Positions 51,830-63,968 of a stretch of DNA of 64,000 nt are shown one piece after another. The stretch is from Thiomicrorhabdus chilensis DSM 12352 (GTDB lineage Bacteria > Pseudomonadota > Gammaproteobacteria > Thiomicrospirales > Thiomicrospiraceae), in NCBI RefSeq assembly GCF_000483485.1, contig NZ_KI519609.1, positions 1,207,460 to 1,271,459 on the forward strand. Reading direction: 5' to 3'. A program made the position numbers and the translations under genes. Numbering within the stretch: the first letter of the stretch is position 1; every line of letters begins with the position of its first letter. The notes under the pieces are model-generated. The model made no database searches. It was not told the origin of the DNA and saw nothing but the letters and a program-made list of their open reading frames with translations.

Positions 51830-53329
51830 TTGGAAGCAGACAACCTTAAGTTACCGGTTACATCGGAACTACTATCGCCCGCGGGCACATTAAAAAACAT
51901 GGAATACGCCTTTGCATACGGCGCTGATGCAGTCTATGCCGGACAGCCGCGTTACAGCTTGCGTGTGCGTAATAATGAGTTTGACGAAGAGACCTTGGAG
52001 AAGGGCATCAACCGCGCCCACGAACTGGGTAAGAAATTCTATGTGGTCAGCAACATCGCCGCGCACAACTCCAAAATCAAAACCTACATGAAAGACATCG
52101 CGCCGATTATCGCGATGAAACCGGACGCCTTGATCATGTCCGATCCGGGTCTGATCGCCATGGTGCATGAAGCCTATCCGGAGCAGGAAATCCATCTGTC
52201 CGTGCAGTCCAACGCCGTCAACTGGGCAACGGTCAAATTCTGGTACAACCAGGGTGTGAGCCGTGTGGTGCTGTCGCGTGAACTGTCGATGCAGGAAATC
52301 CGTGAAATCCGCGAAGCGGTTCCGGAAATGGAAATTGAAGTTTTCGTACACGGCGCTTTATGTATTGCCTATTCGGGCCGCTGTCTGCTTTCCGGTTACA
52401 TCAACAAACGTGACGCCAACCAGGGAACCTGCACCAACGCCTGCCGTTGGAACTACAACACCTATGAAGGCAAGGAAGACGAAAGCGGCGACATCGTCGG
52501 CATTCCGTTAGAGAATGTCTCCAACATCACCGACCTGACTGGCGAACAGGCTGAGGTGGAACCGACCTTGGGCGTTGGGCAAACCACCGACCAGGTTATG
52601 TTGCTGGAAGAGGAAGGGCGTCCGGGTGAATATATGCCGGCGTTTGAAGACGAGCACGGCACCTACATCATGAACTCCAAAGATTTGCGTGCGGTGGAAT
52701 TGATTCCTGAGTTGGTCGGCATGGGCGTGCACTCCCTGAAGATCGAAGGGCGCACCAAATCGCATTATTACGTGGCACGTACCGCACAGGTGTACCGCAA
52801 GGCAATCGACGATGCCGTGGCCGGCAAGCCGTTTGACCAGAACTTGTTGGGCGAGTTGGAAAGCTTGGCCAGCCGCGGTTATACCGAAGGTTTCTTGCGC
52901 CGCCATGTGCATTCCGAATACCAGAACTACGAGTACGGCGTTTCCAAATCCGATCGCCAGCGTTTTGTCGGCGAGGTGGTGGATGTGGTTGAACGCGACG
53001 GTCGCTCAATGCTGGAAATCGACGTCAAAAACAAATTCTGCGTCGGCGATTCCATTGAAATCATGAGTCCGGCCGGAAACGTTACCATGGTGTTGGATCA
53101 CATGCAGACGCATCATGATGAAGTCGTGGATTGCGCCAAAGGCTCCGGCTGGCTGGTGAGAATCCCCAACCCTTTCAAAGACTTGGATGTCGAAACCTTG
53201 AAGTTCGGTTTGCTGATGCGCAATGAGGCTTGGGGCGGAGACGTCAAACGTGATGCCGCAGCCAAAAAGGTCAAACAGCAGCAGGACGCCAAGGACGCTG
53301 AAAAGCGTGCGGCGGCCAAACAGGCTTAA
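51830..53329 (+). CDS. trhP: tRNA uridine-34 hydroxylation protein TrhP (YegQ, U32 peptidase family)
   Basis: 499 residues. A member of the U32 'peptidase' family that in E. coli takes part in forming 5-hydroxyuridine at tRNA position 34. Conserved parts: ELLSPAGTLKNMEYAFAYGA, VYAGQPRYSLRVRNNEF, the family block EVFVHGALCIAYSGRCLLSG and cysteines in DANQGTCTNACRW that may hold an Fe-S cluster. Start is TTG 51830 after TTAGGAG. The extreme C-terminus (KKVKQQQDAKDAEKRAAAKQ) is lysine/alanine-rich. The ferredoxin gene yfhL follows after 14 bases, so they form an operon. Confidence 0.92.
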   Translation: MEADNLKLPVTSELLSPAGTLKNMEYAFAYGADAVYAGQPRYSLRVRNNEFDEETLEKGINRAHELGKKFYVVSNIAAHNSKIKTYMKDIAPIIAMKPDALIMSDPGLIAMVHEAYPEQEIHLSVQSNAVNWATVKFWYNQGVSRVVLSRELSMQEIREIREAVPEMEIEVFVHGALCIAYSGRCLLSGYINKRDANQGTCTNACRWNYNTYEGKEDESGDIVGIPLENVSNITDLTGEQAEVEPTLGVGQTTDQVMLLEEEGRPGEYMPAFEDEHGTYIMNSKDLRAVELIPELVGMGVHSLKIEGRTKSHYYVARTAQVYRKAIDDAVAGKPFDQNLLGELESLASRGYTEGFLRRHVHSEYQNYEYGVSKSDRQRFVGEVVDVVERDGRSMLEIDVKNKFCVGDSIEIMSPAGNVTMVLDHMQTHHDEVVDCAKGSGWLVRIPNPFKDLDVETLKFGLLMRNEAWGGDVKRDAAAKKVKQQQDAKDAEKRAAAKQA

Positions 53330-53343
53330 GGGTCGGAATCTAG

Positions 53344-53601
53344 ATGGCGCTTAAAATCATCAAAGGTTGCATCAACTGCGACATGTGCGAGCCGGAATGC
53401 CCGAACAAGGCGATTTACATGGGTGACAAAATCTATGAAATCAATCCGGATCTGTGCACGGAATGTGTCGGTTTTTATGACCAACCGACCTGCATCAGCG
53501 TATGTCCGCTGGACTGCATCATCACCGACCCCGATCGGGTAGAGGACCACGATACGCTTTACCAGAAATTCACCGAACTGGTCAAAGCCGATAAAATATA
53601 A
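53344..53601 (+). CDS. yfhL: YfhL-type 2[4Fe-4S] ferredoxin
   Basis: 85 residues. Two cluster motifs: CINCDMCEPECPN, and C-x2-C-(insert)-C-x3-C as CTECVGFYDQPTCISVCP, the long loop of the Alvin/YfhL ferredoxin class with low potentials. Its position 14 bases behind trhP suggests it serves the same tRNA-modifying reaction with electrons or clusters; this is an inference from linkage. A terminator follows at 53619. Confidence 0.93.
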   Translation: MALKIIKGCINCDMCEPECPNKAIYMGDKIYEINPDLCTECVGFYDQPTCISVCPLDCIITDPDRVEDHDTLYQKFTELVKADKI

Positions 53602-53760
53602 CTTACCTTTCACTCACTAAGCGGCATTCATAGCCGCTTTTTCCACCCGAATTTGCCTTCAAACATTACCGATTGTTATTTCTGCGCATTTCATCTAGCA
53701 AGCCTTAGTTATTTGCTATAGTATTAAAAAGTAAATTTTACGTACCTATACAGCTATTCC
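53602..53760 (+). repeat. Left copy of diverged direct repeat flanking the cassette region
   Basis: The sequence just behind yfhL, from the terminator to GTATTAAAAAGTAAATTTTACG, is repeated in diverged form at 55541-55712. Shared words include CTAAGCGGCATTCA, AGCCG, TAGTATT and TTTTACGTA at matching distances. Confidence 0.65.
53619..53642 (+). terminator. Terminator of trhP-yfhL
   Basis: AAGCGGC (53619-53625) and GCCGCTT (53633-53639) with a 7-base loop followed by TTT. A mutated copy of the same hairpin occurs at 55558-55581. Confidence 0.85.
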
Positions 53761-53771
53761 GCGTTAATACC

Positions 53772-53884
53772 GTTTAACACTGTCAAAGTGACAGAAAGGT
53801 TAAATTGATATAAAGGCCACAGTGCCTGAATCAGTTTTGAATATCGTATATCAAGGCATTAGTGCCTTATACTAAATGTTATGC
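53772..53884 (+). other. attC-like site upstream of the first cassette gene
   Basis: GTTTAAC (53772-53778) fits the 5' core RYYYAAC and GTTATGC (53878-53884) the 3' core known from Vibrio repeats. Between them ATAAAGGCCACAGTGCC pairs imperfectly with AAGGCATTAGTGCCTTAT, a long VCR-like stem. At 113 bp it is at the long end for attC. The first cassette gene starts 16 bases after the 3' core. Confidence 0.5.
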
Positions 53885-53899
53885 CCCTAAGGAAAGATA

Positions 53900-54442
53900 A
53901 TGGAAGAGCCAAATTGGATTGATTATGTAACTGCTTTAGGTGCGCTATCTACACCTGTTCTAGTAATTATACTTTCGGCTATTGGGTGGAAACTAAGGAA
54001 GGGTATTGAAAGGAAAATTGAGCTAGAAGACAAGCTCCGAGATGACAGGGTAAATATCTATAATCAGATATTAGAGCCTTTCGTAATCCTACTGATGACA
54101 GATACAGCCTGGGGGATGGATAAAAAGAACAAGGGTAAAGATAAAAACAATGTAGCTATCTCACAAATGTTATCGCTAGATTACCGTAGGCTAGGCTTTA
54201 AAATGTCCCTGATGGGTTCAGACTCTGTTGTTCGTTCATATAACAATCTAATGCAGTATTTTTACTCAAAGGGTGATGATATAGAGAATCCAAATGAAAG
54301 CGATCTAAAAGAAATGCTGGGTCTTCTTGGAACATTCCTATTAGAAATTAGAAGAAGCATGGGTAATGAAGCAACTGACCTAGACAATTGGGATATGTTG
54401 GAGTGGTGGATGACGGATGCAAGGCGTCTGCGACACACATAG
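53900..54442 (+). CDS. Cassette gene 1: membrane-anchored protein of unknown function
   Basis: 180 residues. One N-terminal membrane helix (LSTPVLVIILSAIGWKL) and a charged helical cytoplasmic part (KGIERKIELEDKLRDDRVNI; LLGTFLLEIRRSMGNEATDL) ending in a Trp-rich tail (WDMLEWWMTDARRLRHT). No family recognised, as usual for integron cassette genes. AAGGAAAG precedes the ATG. AT-rich and unlike the surrounding codon use, which marks transfer. The stop overlaps the start of the next attC-like site. Confidence 0.6.
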   Translation: MEEPNWIDYVTALGALSTPVLVIILSAIGWKLRKGIERKIELEDKLRDDRVNIYNQILEPFVILLMTDTAWGMDKKNKGKDKNNVAISQMLSLDYRRLGFKMSLMGSDSVVRSYNNLMQYFYSKGDDIENPNESDLKEMLGLLGTFLLEIRRSMGNEATDLDNWDMLEWWMTDARRLRHT

Positions 54443-54513
54443 GGCATAATAAATCGTTCCACCCGATTCGTCACCGCTGCGCGGCTCCTCTCGGGTGAAC
54501 TCAAACGTTAGCC
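54443..54513 (+). other. attC site 1
   Basis: Starts GGCATAAT right at the stop of cassette gene 1 and ends GTTAGCC (54507-54513). Inner arms CACCCGA and TCGGGTG pair perfectly; inside them CCGCTGCGCGG forms the tip. Arm order and distance (about 70 bp) are those of a cassette recombination site, though the outer cores are not fully canonical. Confidence 0.7.
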
Positions 54514-54532
54514 ACATATTTAAGGATAAAGA

Positions 54533-54898
54533 ATGGAATTAAAAGAATTCATTACAGAATCTCTTGTACAAATAGCGGAAGGAATTGATGAGGCAAATTC
54601 TAAGCTTGGTAGCTCCGAAGCATTTGTAAACCCTAATGCTGTACAAGCATATTCTAAAGAAGCTAAAGCTTACGGCAGAGTTAGTGAAAATTACAAAGAG
54701 GACCTTCCTTTGGTTGAGCTTATTGAGTTTGACGTTGCAATCCAAGCTGAATCTGGAGAAAAAACAGGAGGAGGCTTAAAAATATCTATTGCATCAATTG
54801 GCTTAGACGCAAATGGAAGTACGACAGATTCTCATAGCAGTGAATCTAGAATCAAATTCAATATTCCCATGGTATATCCTCATGGAAAAATAATTTAA
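54533..54898 (+). CDS. Cassette gene 2: small soluble protein of unknown function
   Basis: 121 residues, no signal peptide or membrane helix. A helical N-terminus (LKEFITESLVQIAEGIDEAN) and a beta-rich C-terminus (IEFDVAIQAESGEK, GGLKISIASIGLDANG, RIKFNIPMVYP). The pattern resembles the small 'trypco2'-like domains found in defence and signalling contexts, but I would not assign it. AAGGATA precedes the ATG, 19 bases behind the end of attC 1; attC 2 begins at the stop. Confidence 0.6.
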   Translation: MELKEFITESLVQIAEGIDEANSKLGSSEAFVNPNAVQAYSKEAKAYGRVSENYKEDLPLVELIEFDVAIQAESGEKTGGGLKISIASIGLDANGSTTDSHSSESRIKFNIPMVYPHGKII

Positions 54899-54960
54899 GC
54901 CTAACAATTCACTCAACCCGACCGCGTTCACGCGCGGCCGGTTAGCTTAAACATTATGTG
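54899..54960 (+). other. attC site 2
   Basis: Begins with the canonical 5' core GCCTAAC (54899-54905). Arms CCCGACCGCG and CGCGGCCGG pair with one bulge around TTCACG. The 3' core reads CATTATG, one change from the canonical GTTATG. Length 62 bp. This is the best-formed attC of the group. Confidence 0.75.
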
Positions 54961-54992
54961 AGCAATATCATCAAATAGTCAAAGGAGTCAAA

Positions 54993-55289
54993 ATGCGTAT
55001 GACGATTGCCGACCGATTCAAAGCTCTATTTGCAAATGATGAATATGACTATTGGTTTAAACATTTTACTGATGAAGAAAAAAAACTTCGCCGCATGGAT
55101 TCTTGGGAGCTAGCTAAAGTGATCCAGGAGGAGACCGGCTCAACAGGAGATTCTTCAAAAAGAATCGTTGCAGAGCATCTGCTTCAAGTTCGCCTTGTCA
55201 AACTACAAAACCGCGCAACATATATAGGCATTGTTTTCGGGTTGCTTGGTATCGTTATTGGTGCATTTTTGAATAAGTTGCTTCAGTGA
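54993..55289 (+). CDS. Cassette gene 3: small protein with C-terminal membrane helix
   Basis: 98 residues. A charged N-terminal part (TIADRFKALFANDEYDYWFK) and one C-terminal helix (ATYIGIVFGLLGIVIGAFLN). AAAGGAGT precedes the ATG. Unknown function. No complete attC is seen behind it, so the third cassette has probably lost its right end, next to the transposase remnant. Confidence 0.6.
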   Translation: MRMTIADRFKALFANDEYDYWFKHFTDEEKKLRRMDSWELAKVIQEETGSTGDSSKRIVAEHLLQVRLVKLQNRATYIGIVFGLLGIVIGAFLNKLLQ

Positions 55290-55373
55290 TAATACATAAC
55301 CAGTGGGAAAAAGGTGTCAAAGCCTTTTTTTGAATAACATTAATTGTTTACCGCGCTAAGCTAGGATTGTTTC

Positions 55374-55447
55374 ATGCCCCGTAAATCTAGATTTTTCTTA
55401 CTTGGTGCCTAACCATGTTGTTCAACGTGGGCGTAATCGTGCTTCTA
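55374..55447 (+). pseudogene. Remnant of a REP-associated (Y1, IS200-like) transposase gene
   Basis: ATG at 55374 reads MPRKSRFFLLG; after a one-base shift the sequence continues VPNHVVQRGRNRA. Together this is the N-terminal signature of REP-associated tyrosine transposases (MPRKPR-x-HVIQRGNNR). The rest of the gene is missing. The following AAAGGGGACACTATCC is a sequence often seen next to such genes. Confidence 0.65.
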
Positions 55448-55540
55448 TTTTTTTAGGGGAAAAGGGGACACTATCCTTAAATTTCGCAAAAATTATAATA
55501 AATAGTGCCTCCTTTCCTAAATGGTCAAACTTGACAAAAT

Positions 55541-55712
55541 TTAACCCGCCTTTCCTTGACTAAGCGGCATTCACAGCCGATTTTGTCATTCCAAATCTGC
55601 CTATTAAAGATTATAAATCTTTGTTGCTACGTATTTTATTTCTATATCCCTTGTTTTTTGTTGTAGTATTTAACTGTAGTTTTACGTAATATTACAGGGT
55701 TGTCATCCAGTG
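55541..55712 (+). repeat. Right copy of diverged direct repeat flanking the cassette region
   Basis: Matches 53602-53760: CTAAGCGGCATTCACAGCCG against CTAAGCGGCATTCATAGCCG, then a similar AT-rich stretch, and TGTAGTATTTAACTGTAGTT followed by TTACGTA against TATAGTATTAAAAAGTAAAT and TTACGTA. The terminator hairpin has lost pairing here. No gene lies in it. Confidence 0.65.
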
Positions 55713-55732
55713 CCTTTTAATGAGGCCGATTT

Positions 55733-55913
55733 GACAAGGGAATTGATATTCAGGCAAAAGAAATTATCAATTTAGCTTCAGCCAAAATGTTGTAAAAAGC
55801 GTGGAATTACTTTTGTAGCCGTTGCACCTGTTATAAAACAGACTGTGCCAATGGTCAGTGAACCATGCTTAACCATGTTCTCATACCGAGTGCGCTATCG
55901 CGTAGCGACTTAA
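55733..55913 (+). pseudogene. Frameshifted gene fragment of unknown origin
   Basis: One frame reads KGIDIQAKEIINLASAKML and stops at 55793-55795. Four bases later, shifted by one, a second frame opens as KRGITFVAVAPVIKQTVPMV and runs on to a TAA at 55911. Both halves look protein-like and would join into one sequence with a small indel. I cannot name the parent gene. The rest of the 685-bp gap (55290-55974) holds the transposase remnant and the right repeat copy. Confidence 0.25.
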
Positions 55914-55974: not shown

Positions 55975-56643
55975 GTGAATATTGAGACAGATTTTCTACA
56001 TCGGGTGGCTGCATTTCTGATGGTGCATATCCTCTATGAGGTCCCCAGTGTATCGGCTTTGGGGGTAACGCCGGATATATTCGTTGATGAACTGCGATTT
56101 GAATCCAACAGCGCCATTGATGATTTGGTTCTGATGACTTCTCATGGACGGTTTTTTATTCAGGCCAAACACACTTTGAGTTTGTCGGATTGTTGTGTTT
56201 CAGAGTATTCATCTGTGTTAAGGCAATTCATTGTTCAATTCTGTAGCGAGAACATTAAAGGCGACAGATACATCATCGCCACCAACTCAGAGGCCTCTCT
56301 GGAGATCACGAAAGAGCTGAAAAACTTGACTGAGATGAGTCGTATCAATGGCACCCATATTATTGATACTCCTCAAACTGACCTTGAACGGGACGTTATA
56401 TCAAAAACCCGGAGCCTGTTGGAATTTCACTTTAAAAGCGTAACAGGGGAGGAGCTTCCAAAGAGGGTTTTAGAGGAAATATTCTCAAAAATTCATGTGG
56501 CCGTCATTGATATCGAAGCTGGTAAACCGCTTGAAAAGGCTGTGATGTCCTTGTTGGCGGATAAAAGTGGAATGAATTCGGACGAAATTTGGGAGGCGAT
56601 GATTTCGATGTGTGCGAACGGAAAGGTGATATTGGCCAATTGA
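55975..56643 (+). CDS. Stand-alone nuclease-like domain protein, possibly defence-related
   Basis: 222 residues. Residues 45-70 (AIDDLVLMTSHGRFFIQAKH) show the pattern D-x12-QxK of PD-(D/E)xK-type nuclease folds, followed by TLSLSDCCVSEYSSVLRQFI, a combination known from the N-terminal domain of very large ATPase-type defence proteins. The remainder is helical (EEIFSKIHVAVIDIEAGKPL). No ATPase part follows, so this is either a free-standing domain or a fragment with a natural stop. Start GTG 55975 has AGGAGGTGAGG upstream. It lies at the end of the accessory segment. Confidence 0.55.
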   Translation: MNIETDFLHRVAAFLMVHILYEVPSVSALGVTPDIFVDELRFESNSAIDDLVLMTSHGRFFIQAKHTLSLSDCCVSEYSSVLRQFIVQFCSENIKGDRYIIATNSEASLEITKELKNLTEMSRINGTHIIDTPQTDLERDVISKTRSLLEFHFKSVTGEELPKRVLEEIFSKIHVAVIDIEAGKPLEKAVMSLLADKSGMNSDEIWEAMISMCANGKVILAN

Positions 56644-63736: not shown

Positions 63737-63968
63737 TTAACCTTCCTTTTTAAAGTCGAGTGCAATTCGGTAACCTGTGTTCAGCTAAAGTGAATTGCTA
63801 TTGTCAAAGTGACCATTTAAAAATTGAAGGCACAAAAATGTGGGAAGAGACAAAAATAAGATCTGTTATCGGAAATCAAACAGCTTATTATTTGGCAACC
63901 GGCTATCTTACTGAGTAAGACCCTTGGCTTTCCGTCCTTGCTTCACAACAAGTTTGGCACAACAAATA

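Follow-up and report, generated by a model that had tools for sequence, protein, structure and literature searches.

The DNA behind the trhP-yfhL gene pair in the analysed stretch of 64 kb (hereafter the window) is best read as a degraded integron locus of the chromosome: the integrase gene (intI) has gone, the attI site stayed together with three cassettes, and the array is now probably frozen. To this reading we give a probability of roughly 80%. By the IntegronFinder 2.0 definition, which the accessible part of the source gives as at least two attC sites with no neighbouring integrase (PMC9024848), the locus is a CALIN, its attC sites being called here with our own covariance model (R2). 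More exactly, it has the sequence features of an integron relic without intI that retains an attI-like site, an intI stub and three cassettes. The label of a CALIN without integrase, given to the locus in an earlier sequence-only reading, is therefore right by definition but incomplete, as the attI-like site and the intI stub are still in place. The genes trhP (51830-53329) and yfhL (53344-53601) are followed in the window by three plus-strand open reading frames (ORFs), and the features of the locus are as follows (window coordinates, strand, description):

53344..53601, plus: yfhL (4Fe-4S ferredoxin), left chromosomal neighbour; NCBIfam NF033683, 129 bits
53684..53735, minus: putative intI stub, about 16 antisense 5' codons; 19-base anchor and R3 alignment
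53684..53881, plus: attI-like platform (intI stub, upstream region, GTT at 53878-53880); R3 85.5 bits, E 3.9e-25
53879..54507, plus: cassette 1, crossover to crossover (inferred), bounded by the attI-like site and attC1
53900..54442, plus: ORF1, 180 aa, no known domain; likely N-terminal membrane helix by eye
54444..54513, plus: attC1; R2 26.2 bits, E 1.5e-4; left-box TAAC core reads TAAT
54533..54898, plus: ORF2 (cassette 2), 121 aa, weakly Trypco2-like (PF19631)
54899..54959, plus: attC2; R2 70.2 bits, E 3.2e-17; crossover box ATT instead of GTT
54993..55289, plus: ORF3 (cassette 3), 98 aa; likely C-terminal membrane helix by eye
55310..55454, plus: stretch with the frameshifted start of a transposase-like gene; 81% identity over 148 bp to locus L092, in the array of genome G001
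55516..55770, plus: degenerate second copy of the yfhL 3' end, a terminator-like hairpin (by eye) and the left part of the intI stub/attI

The site in front of ORF1, with its GTTATGC end, had been counted among the attC sites, and in this respect the earlier picture of attC-separated cassettes has to be corrected, as the site is attI-like, whereas the picture stands for the sites after ORF1 and ORF2. Tried as an attC, the site at 53684-53881 reached only 8.9 bits (E 1.1) in an unfiltered R2 search and is therefore not taken as one; it was matched at 85.5 bits, over nearly the entire model, by R3, an attI sequence model trained without the window on 12 copies, of which seven adjoin intI or what remains of it and five are orphans. 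Furthermore, the segment 53834-53881 resembles DNA adjoining intI in the same genome and in several members of the genus. Because the R3 match starts in the antisense 5' end of intI, an integrase gene directed towards yfhL was most likely lost down to about 16 codons. The evidence for this stub consists of a 19-base anchor and the R3 alignment, which counts against the preferred reading: the anchor scored 31.1 (99th percentile of shuffles, 4.5), the stretch from it to the former start codon just -18.1 (95th percentile, -19.2), and the 30 bases upstream were at null level. A scan for a cassette promoter returned six promoter-like sites, none of them in the attI, against 6.9 expected from shuffles, and since such sites are no commoner than in shuffles, no cassette promoter is claimed.

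A covariance-model check for attC sites had been recommended in the sequence-only reading, and it returned two matches, 54444-54513 and 54899-54959. R2 was built from seven 61-base attC sites, none from the window, of which four came from intI-adjacent arrays of other genomes (G001, G002, G005, G007), two from the array at the intI of the genome under study (G000) and the seventh from G021, where the array is an orphan, the adjoining intI being broken in G001, G005 and G000; the model covers the short attC class only, and its E-values are rough owing to a short calibration. No third R2 match at E<=1 was present within the 64-kb window, and after ORF3 no match rose above background, an ACATAAC box near 55295 being recognised by eye only. 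In the whole genome, with 150 of 309 candidates scored, at least seven R2 matches at E<=10 formed three clusters, each with an attI-like copy: a pair at the intI locus, the pair in the window, and a group of three within C1:2339120-2340333. On its own, the bottom strand of attC1 folds better than 200 of 200 shuffles (z -2.7), and that of attC2 is unexceptional (z -1.6, with 11 of 200 shuffles as good); the modest score of attC1 and the ordinary fold of attC2 both count against the preferred reading. Of two pattern scans, the first missed both attC sites of the window; the other picked up nothing in the window but the attI region, with a score that shuffles can equal. An earlier attC model (R1), made from a mixed-length alignment, contained no base pairs and was not used. 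A search with Rfam at its gathering threshold hit the window four times, at three tRNAs and one riboswitch, and never at the array. A c-di-GMP-I riboswitch aptamer lies on the minus strand at 63891-63968 (58.4 bits).

The three small genes lie on the same strand as the earlier reading had it (53900-54442, 54533-54898 and 54993-55289), with the two R2 sites between them. ORF1 matched no Pfam family over cut-off and had no relative in viral contigs; its relatives occur in three other genomes among the 369 searched, and one of these, at 61% identity, has attC matches on both sides. ORF2 has relatives in seven other genomes of the 369 searched, as well as one weak relative among the plasmids searched. 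Six of the eight members of the ORF2 family match PF19631 (Trypco2; best E 1.1e-4), the window protein itself staying below the cut-off, and the relative in G022 has attC matches on both sides and stands behind an orphan attI. For ORF3, two relatives were found among the genome contigs searched; the relative in Pseudomonas sp. WN033, 60% identical, has a weak attC match just before it (19.1 bits, E 0.01) and an attC-like sequence, seen by eye, after it. For each of the three genes, an attC match thus adjoins one or more of its relatives elsewhere, and across the 12 loci with cassette-gene relatives R2, which covers the short class only, found an attC at E<=1 at five and none at seven, the latter counting against the preferred reading. 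The window genes have the marks of gene cassettes, each being one small gene with an attC and with relatives in attC settings elsewhere, with the limit that cassette 3 itself has no intact attC, and the scatter and attC setting of the relatives are consistent with ORF1 to ORF3 being cassette genes.

No integrase gene lies in the window, as had been stated: the only TIGR02249 match over cut-off in the genome (2,443,034 bases, two contigs) is C1:1514829-1515779, at 422 bits, 243 kb beyond the window. The genome-wide search that had been suggested thus shows one intI elsewhere, which carries an in-frame stop, a single TAA. Of the components of a complete integron, the window holds an attI site, as judged by sequence alone (R3, 85.5 bits), and only the stub at 53684-53735 in place of an intI gene. 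Under the preferred reading, the space between yfhL and a GST-like gene would once have been occupied by an integron, whose cassettes presumably entered at the GTT of attI through IntI-catalysed attI x attC recombination, as the anatomy of the locus suggests. The intI gene would then have eroded to the roughly 16 codons now seen, leaving the attI and the three-cassette array that are still visible; after this local loss, an integrase encoded elsewhere could still have acted in trans, to judge from related orphan sites. In its own genome the array is now probably frozen, because the sole intI has a stop, both attC sites are altered in their cores and the last attC is not intact.

Comparison with relatives bears on how the array came to its place. 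The yfhL gene follows trhP in 20 of the 20 relatives fetched, and ORF1 to ORF4 were not found by tblastn (E<=1e-5) in the stretch of about 6 kb behind trhP in these 20, so that the contrary case named beforehand, the same genes at this place without attC-like spacers, did not appear among them. In eight of the 20, the gap between yfhL and the GST-like gene (named by eye) is as short as 103 to 220 bp (G026, 160; G009, 159; G007, 103; G029, 127; G002, 169; G012, 118; G021, 207; G011, 220), which argues that the window array is an insertion. In G003 and G027 the gap measures about 3 kb and contains attC sites together with an oppositely oriented attI-like platform (L057 and L059); in G004, G005 and G020 it spans 1.5 to 2.8 kb, and the window array has no member there; the GST-like gene was unmatched in six of the 20, and G030 matched neither marker. 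An insertion could also have come about if IntI had placed cassettes at a secondary site (attG) behind yfhL where an integron never stood, which would suit both the distance of the array from intI and the short gap in eight relatives. An attG is, however, neither attI nor attC, and here the array is preceded by an attI-like site with an intI stub, neither of which a secondary-site insertion would bring, making this explanation very improbable. The retention of the attI-like site and the intI 5' stub points instead to a degraded platform rather than to cassettes that landed at a random place. Because no intI was seen inside the gap in the relatives read, and because the platforms of G003 and G027 have the opposite orientation, it is possible that a platform already without integrase was relocated. 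The trhP DNA had no match in phages.

The right end of the locus is less simple. Behind ORF3, at 55310-55454, lies the frameshifted start of what we take to be a transposase-like gene of the REP-associated type, and further on the segment 55516-55770 aligns with 53573-53830, with 172 of 250 aligned bases equal (score 67.5; shuffle maximum -12.5, n=200). This degenerate copy was detected as a 71% match (E 2.8e-15) and reached just 9.2 bits (E 0.16) with R3; it shows that the history of the locus is more complex and to that extent counts against the preferred reading. That the 3' end of yfhL, the hairpin and the stub recur on both sides of the array, at a spacing of about 1943 bp, is the one observation in favour of another course of events, in which a piece from the end of yfhL to the cassettes was imported from a relative by homologous recombination and 55516-55770 represents an older resident platform. 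Such an import would be compatible with a degraded integron locus, but we regard it as unlikely, since identity to G026 runs along trhP-yfhL without an evident step (per-bin values of 77 to 89%, lowest in the last bin, the 3' half of yfhL) and no donor was found. Further downstream, ORF4 (55975-56643, 222 aa) matches no more than positions 11-240 of the 1657-position PADLOC entry PDC-M54A (E 1e-23), and by this similarity it may be a fragment of a candidate phage defence protein or share a domain with one.

Platforms of this kind are widespread in the genus. R3 matches at E<=3e-7 were found at no fewer than 47 places in at least 22 of the 32 genus genomes, both counts being lower bounds with 80 candidates scored per genome, and G000 itself has at least four attI-like platforms, including the window and one beside its intI. 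Among 43 platforms examined, 15 had intI or a fragment of it upstream and 28, in 16 genomes, had neither (the orphans), a split for which 650 upstream bp per platform (346 bp in one case) were searched by tblastn, so that short remnants can have been missed; left out of the 43 were G020:C28, G030:C8, G017:C74 and G018:C49, all beside intI or fragments. An R2 attC match on the expected strand and side accompanied 17 of the 28 orphans (hand count; short class only), including weak or distant ones at L141 (20.5 bits) and L139 (about 6 kb away). Upstream genes identified several platforms as orthologous, among them, under gene names that we assigned from the sequences, those at lspA (G011, G029, G012), ilvC (G004, G006) and opp (G005, G029, G011). 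The opp site presents a series of decay, with intI in two pieces in G005, in fragments in G029 and as a stub only in G011. The intI gene of G002 shows no stop.

Several smaller features recur among these platforms. The intI homology ends near codon 16 at several orphans, including the window (53684-53735), and TACGTA is found at the orphans L076, L083, L084 and L134 where most intI-linked copies have TACGCA. A moving attI module, suggested by the shared left end of the stub, was considered and not adopted: about two thirds of the orphans showed no clear stub in the anchor test, and G012_L138 and G011_L140 retain more of intI than the stub. In addition, a short hairpin, perfect or nearly so, lies right after the attI crossover at L134 (G000:C1:1468872), L078 and L088 (both G004) and L139 (G006), and in the same position at L087 (G008), L146 (G018), L144 (G017) and L151 (G013). 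Where the sequence was read on (L134, L088, L078 and L139), a long attC-like sequence follows it, and the hairpin may thus belong to a very small cassette without a gene, found repeatedly in first place across several species. At the orphan platform C1:1468872 there was no R2 attC match, and the attC-like sequence there was recognised by eye.

At some orphan sites the cassettes appear to have changed after intI was gone. At the lspA site of three species, the last 100 attI bases are 87 to 94% identical and the preceding 320 bases 76 to 93%, and the 300 bases past the crossover are 60 to 65% identical, which is the level of shuffles (means 63 to 65%); trhP is 86 to 88% identical among these species (G011, G029 and G012). 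Since the junction between the lspA flank and attI is common to the species, the loss of intI probably predates their split, and the cassettes would have changed afterwards. The same contrast was seen in the orphan pair G011_L140/G012_L138, with 88.8, 81.8 and 87.4% identity before the crossover and 66.7% after it (null for the latter: mean 63.9, maximum 68.1). The first cassettes of the ilvC pair are related (83% over 148), around attI the pairs G017/G022 and G003/G027 have diverged too far for a verdict, and turnover is thus clear in two of five orthologous orphan groups. Moreover, the G000 orphan at C1:1468872-1469062 and the opp orphan of G011 share a cassette, second in the former and first in the latter, with 96% identity over 482 bases that start right behind the crossover in both, and trhP of the two genomes is 74% identical. 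Either trans action of an integrase or the exchange of arrays by homologous recombination best accounts for this shared cassette, and to judge from such comparisons orphan attI sites may have been used in trans.

These observations raise the alternative of a living satellite platform, that is, an attI-only docking site kept under selection and served by IntI in trans, with several such sites per genome. The number of copies, the 28 of 43 examined platforms without upstream intI, the orthologous orphans with conserved attI and flank but different cassettes, and the 96% identical cassette at the G000 and G011 orphans are all in keeping with it. On the other hand, the intI of G000 has a stop and both attC sites of the window are core-altered, nine of the 16 orphan-bearing genomes have no intI over cut-off, and arrays can also be swapped by homologous recombination, with clear turnover confined to the two groups mentioned; a satellite still alive in the window is accordingly doubtful, yet as the past of the locus it would be compatible with the degraded integron that we favour. 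On a wider scale, the genus might carry a distributed integron, in which dispersed intI-less attI platforms at inherited fixed places have their cassettes exchanged by one integrase in trans, the window being one of the four platforms of its genome, frozen by the loss of the integrase; we put this forward tentatively, as conceivable though short of probable.

In the accessible part of the IntegronFinder 2.0 paper (PMC9024848), one survey counts 2961 CALINs compared with 2760 complete integrons, the descent of CALINs from degraded integrons is stated as a proposal, and attI is sought for class 1 only; CALINs are apparently tabulated, in the portion available of PMC10295459, for Hydrogenovibrio crunogenus SP-41 and Thiomicrospira crunogena XCL-2. 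The origin of CALINs has so far only been proposed. A lineage-specific attI model can tell degraded platforms from cassettes dropped elsewhere, and at the present locus its match points to a degraded platform. Should orphan attI sites indeed be used by an integrase in trans, a single such enzyme could load cassettes at several places on one chromosome. No report of dispersed chromosomal attI sites without intI was recognised in the open-licence literature searched, and what is new here is the attI evidence at an orphan array, together with the sequence signs of continued cassette uptake at some orphan sites.

The window locus shares with CALINs in general the two attC sites and the absence of an integrase nearby, and differs from them by its attI-like site and intI stub. 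In a survey from 2008, roughly one intI gene in three was a pseudogene (PMC2426708), and chromosomal integrons with such a pseudogene resemble the window in the decay of intI; the window keeps only about 16 codons, and its genome differs in having at least three further attI-like platforms elsewhere, one of them beside intI. The insertions at attG, which the available sections of PMC12444791 describe as a non-classical insertion site, likewise place cassettes away from the integrase, whereas an attI-like site is present in the window. Delta-attI-type cassettes, reported as parts of resistance cassettes in mobile integrons (PMC12901181), are similar in that attI pieces lie out of their usual place, which here concerns whole chromosomal attI-like platforms. 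In Xanthomonas, cassette clusters (CALINs) occupy conserved positions away from intI/ilvD (PMC12444791), and they resemble the window locus in their fixed places; the available sections of that report give no attI for them, whereas the site in the window is marked by one.
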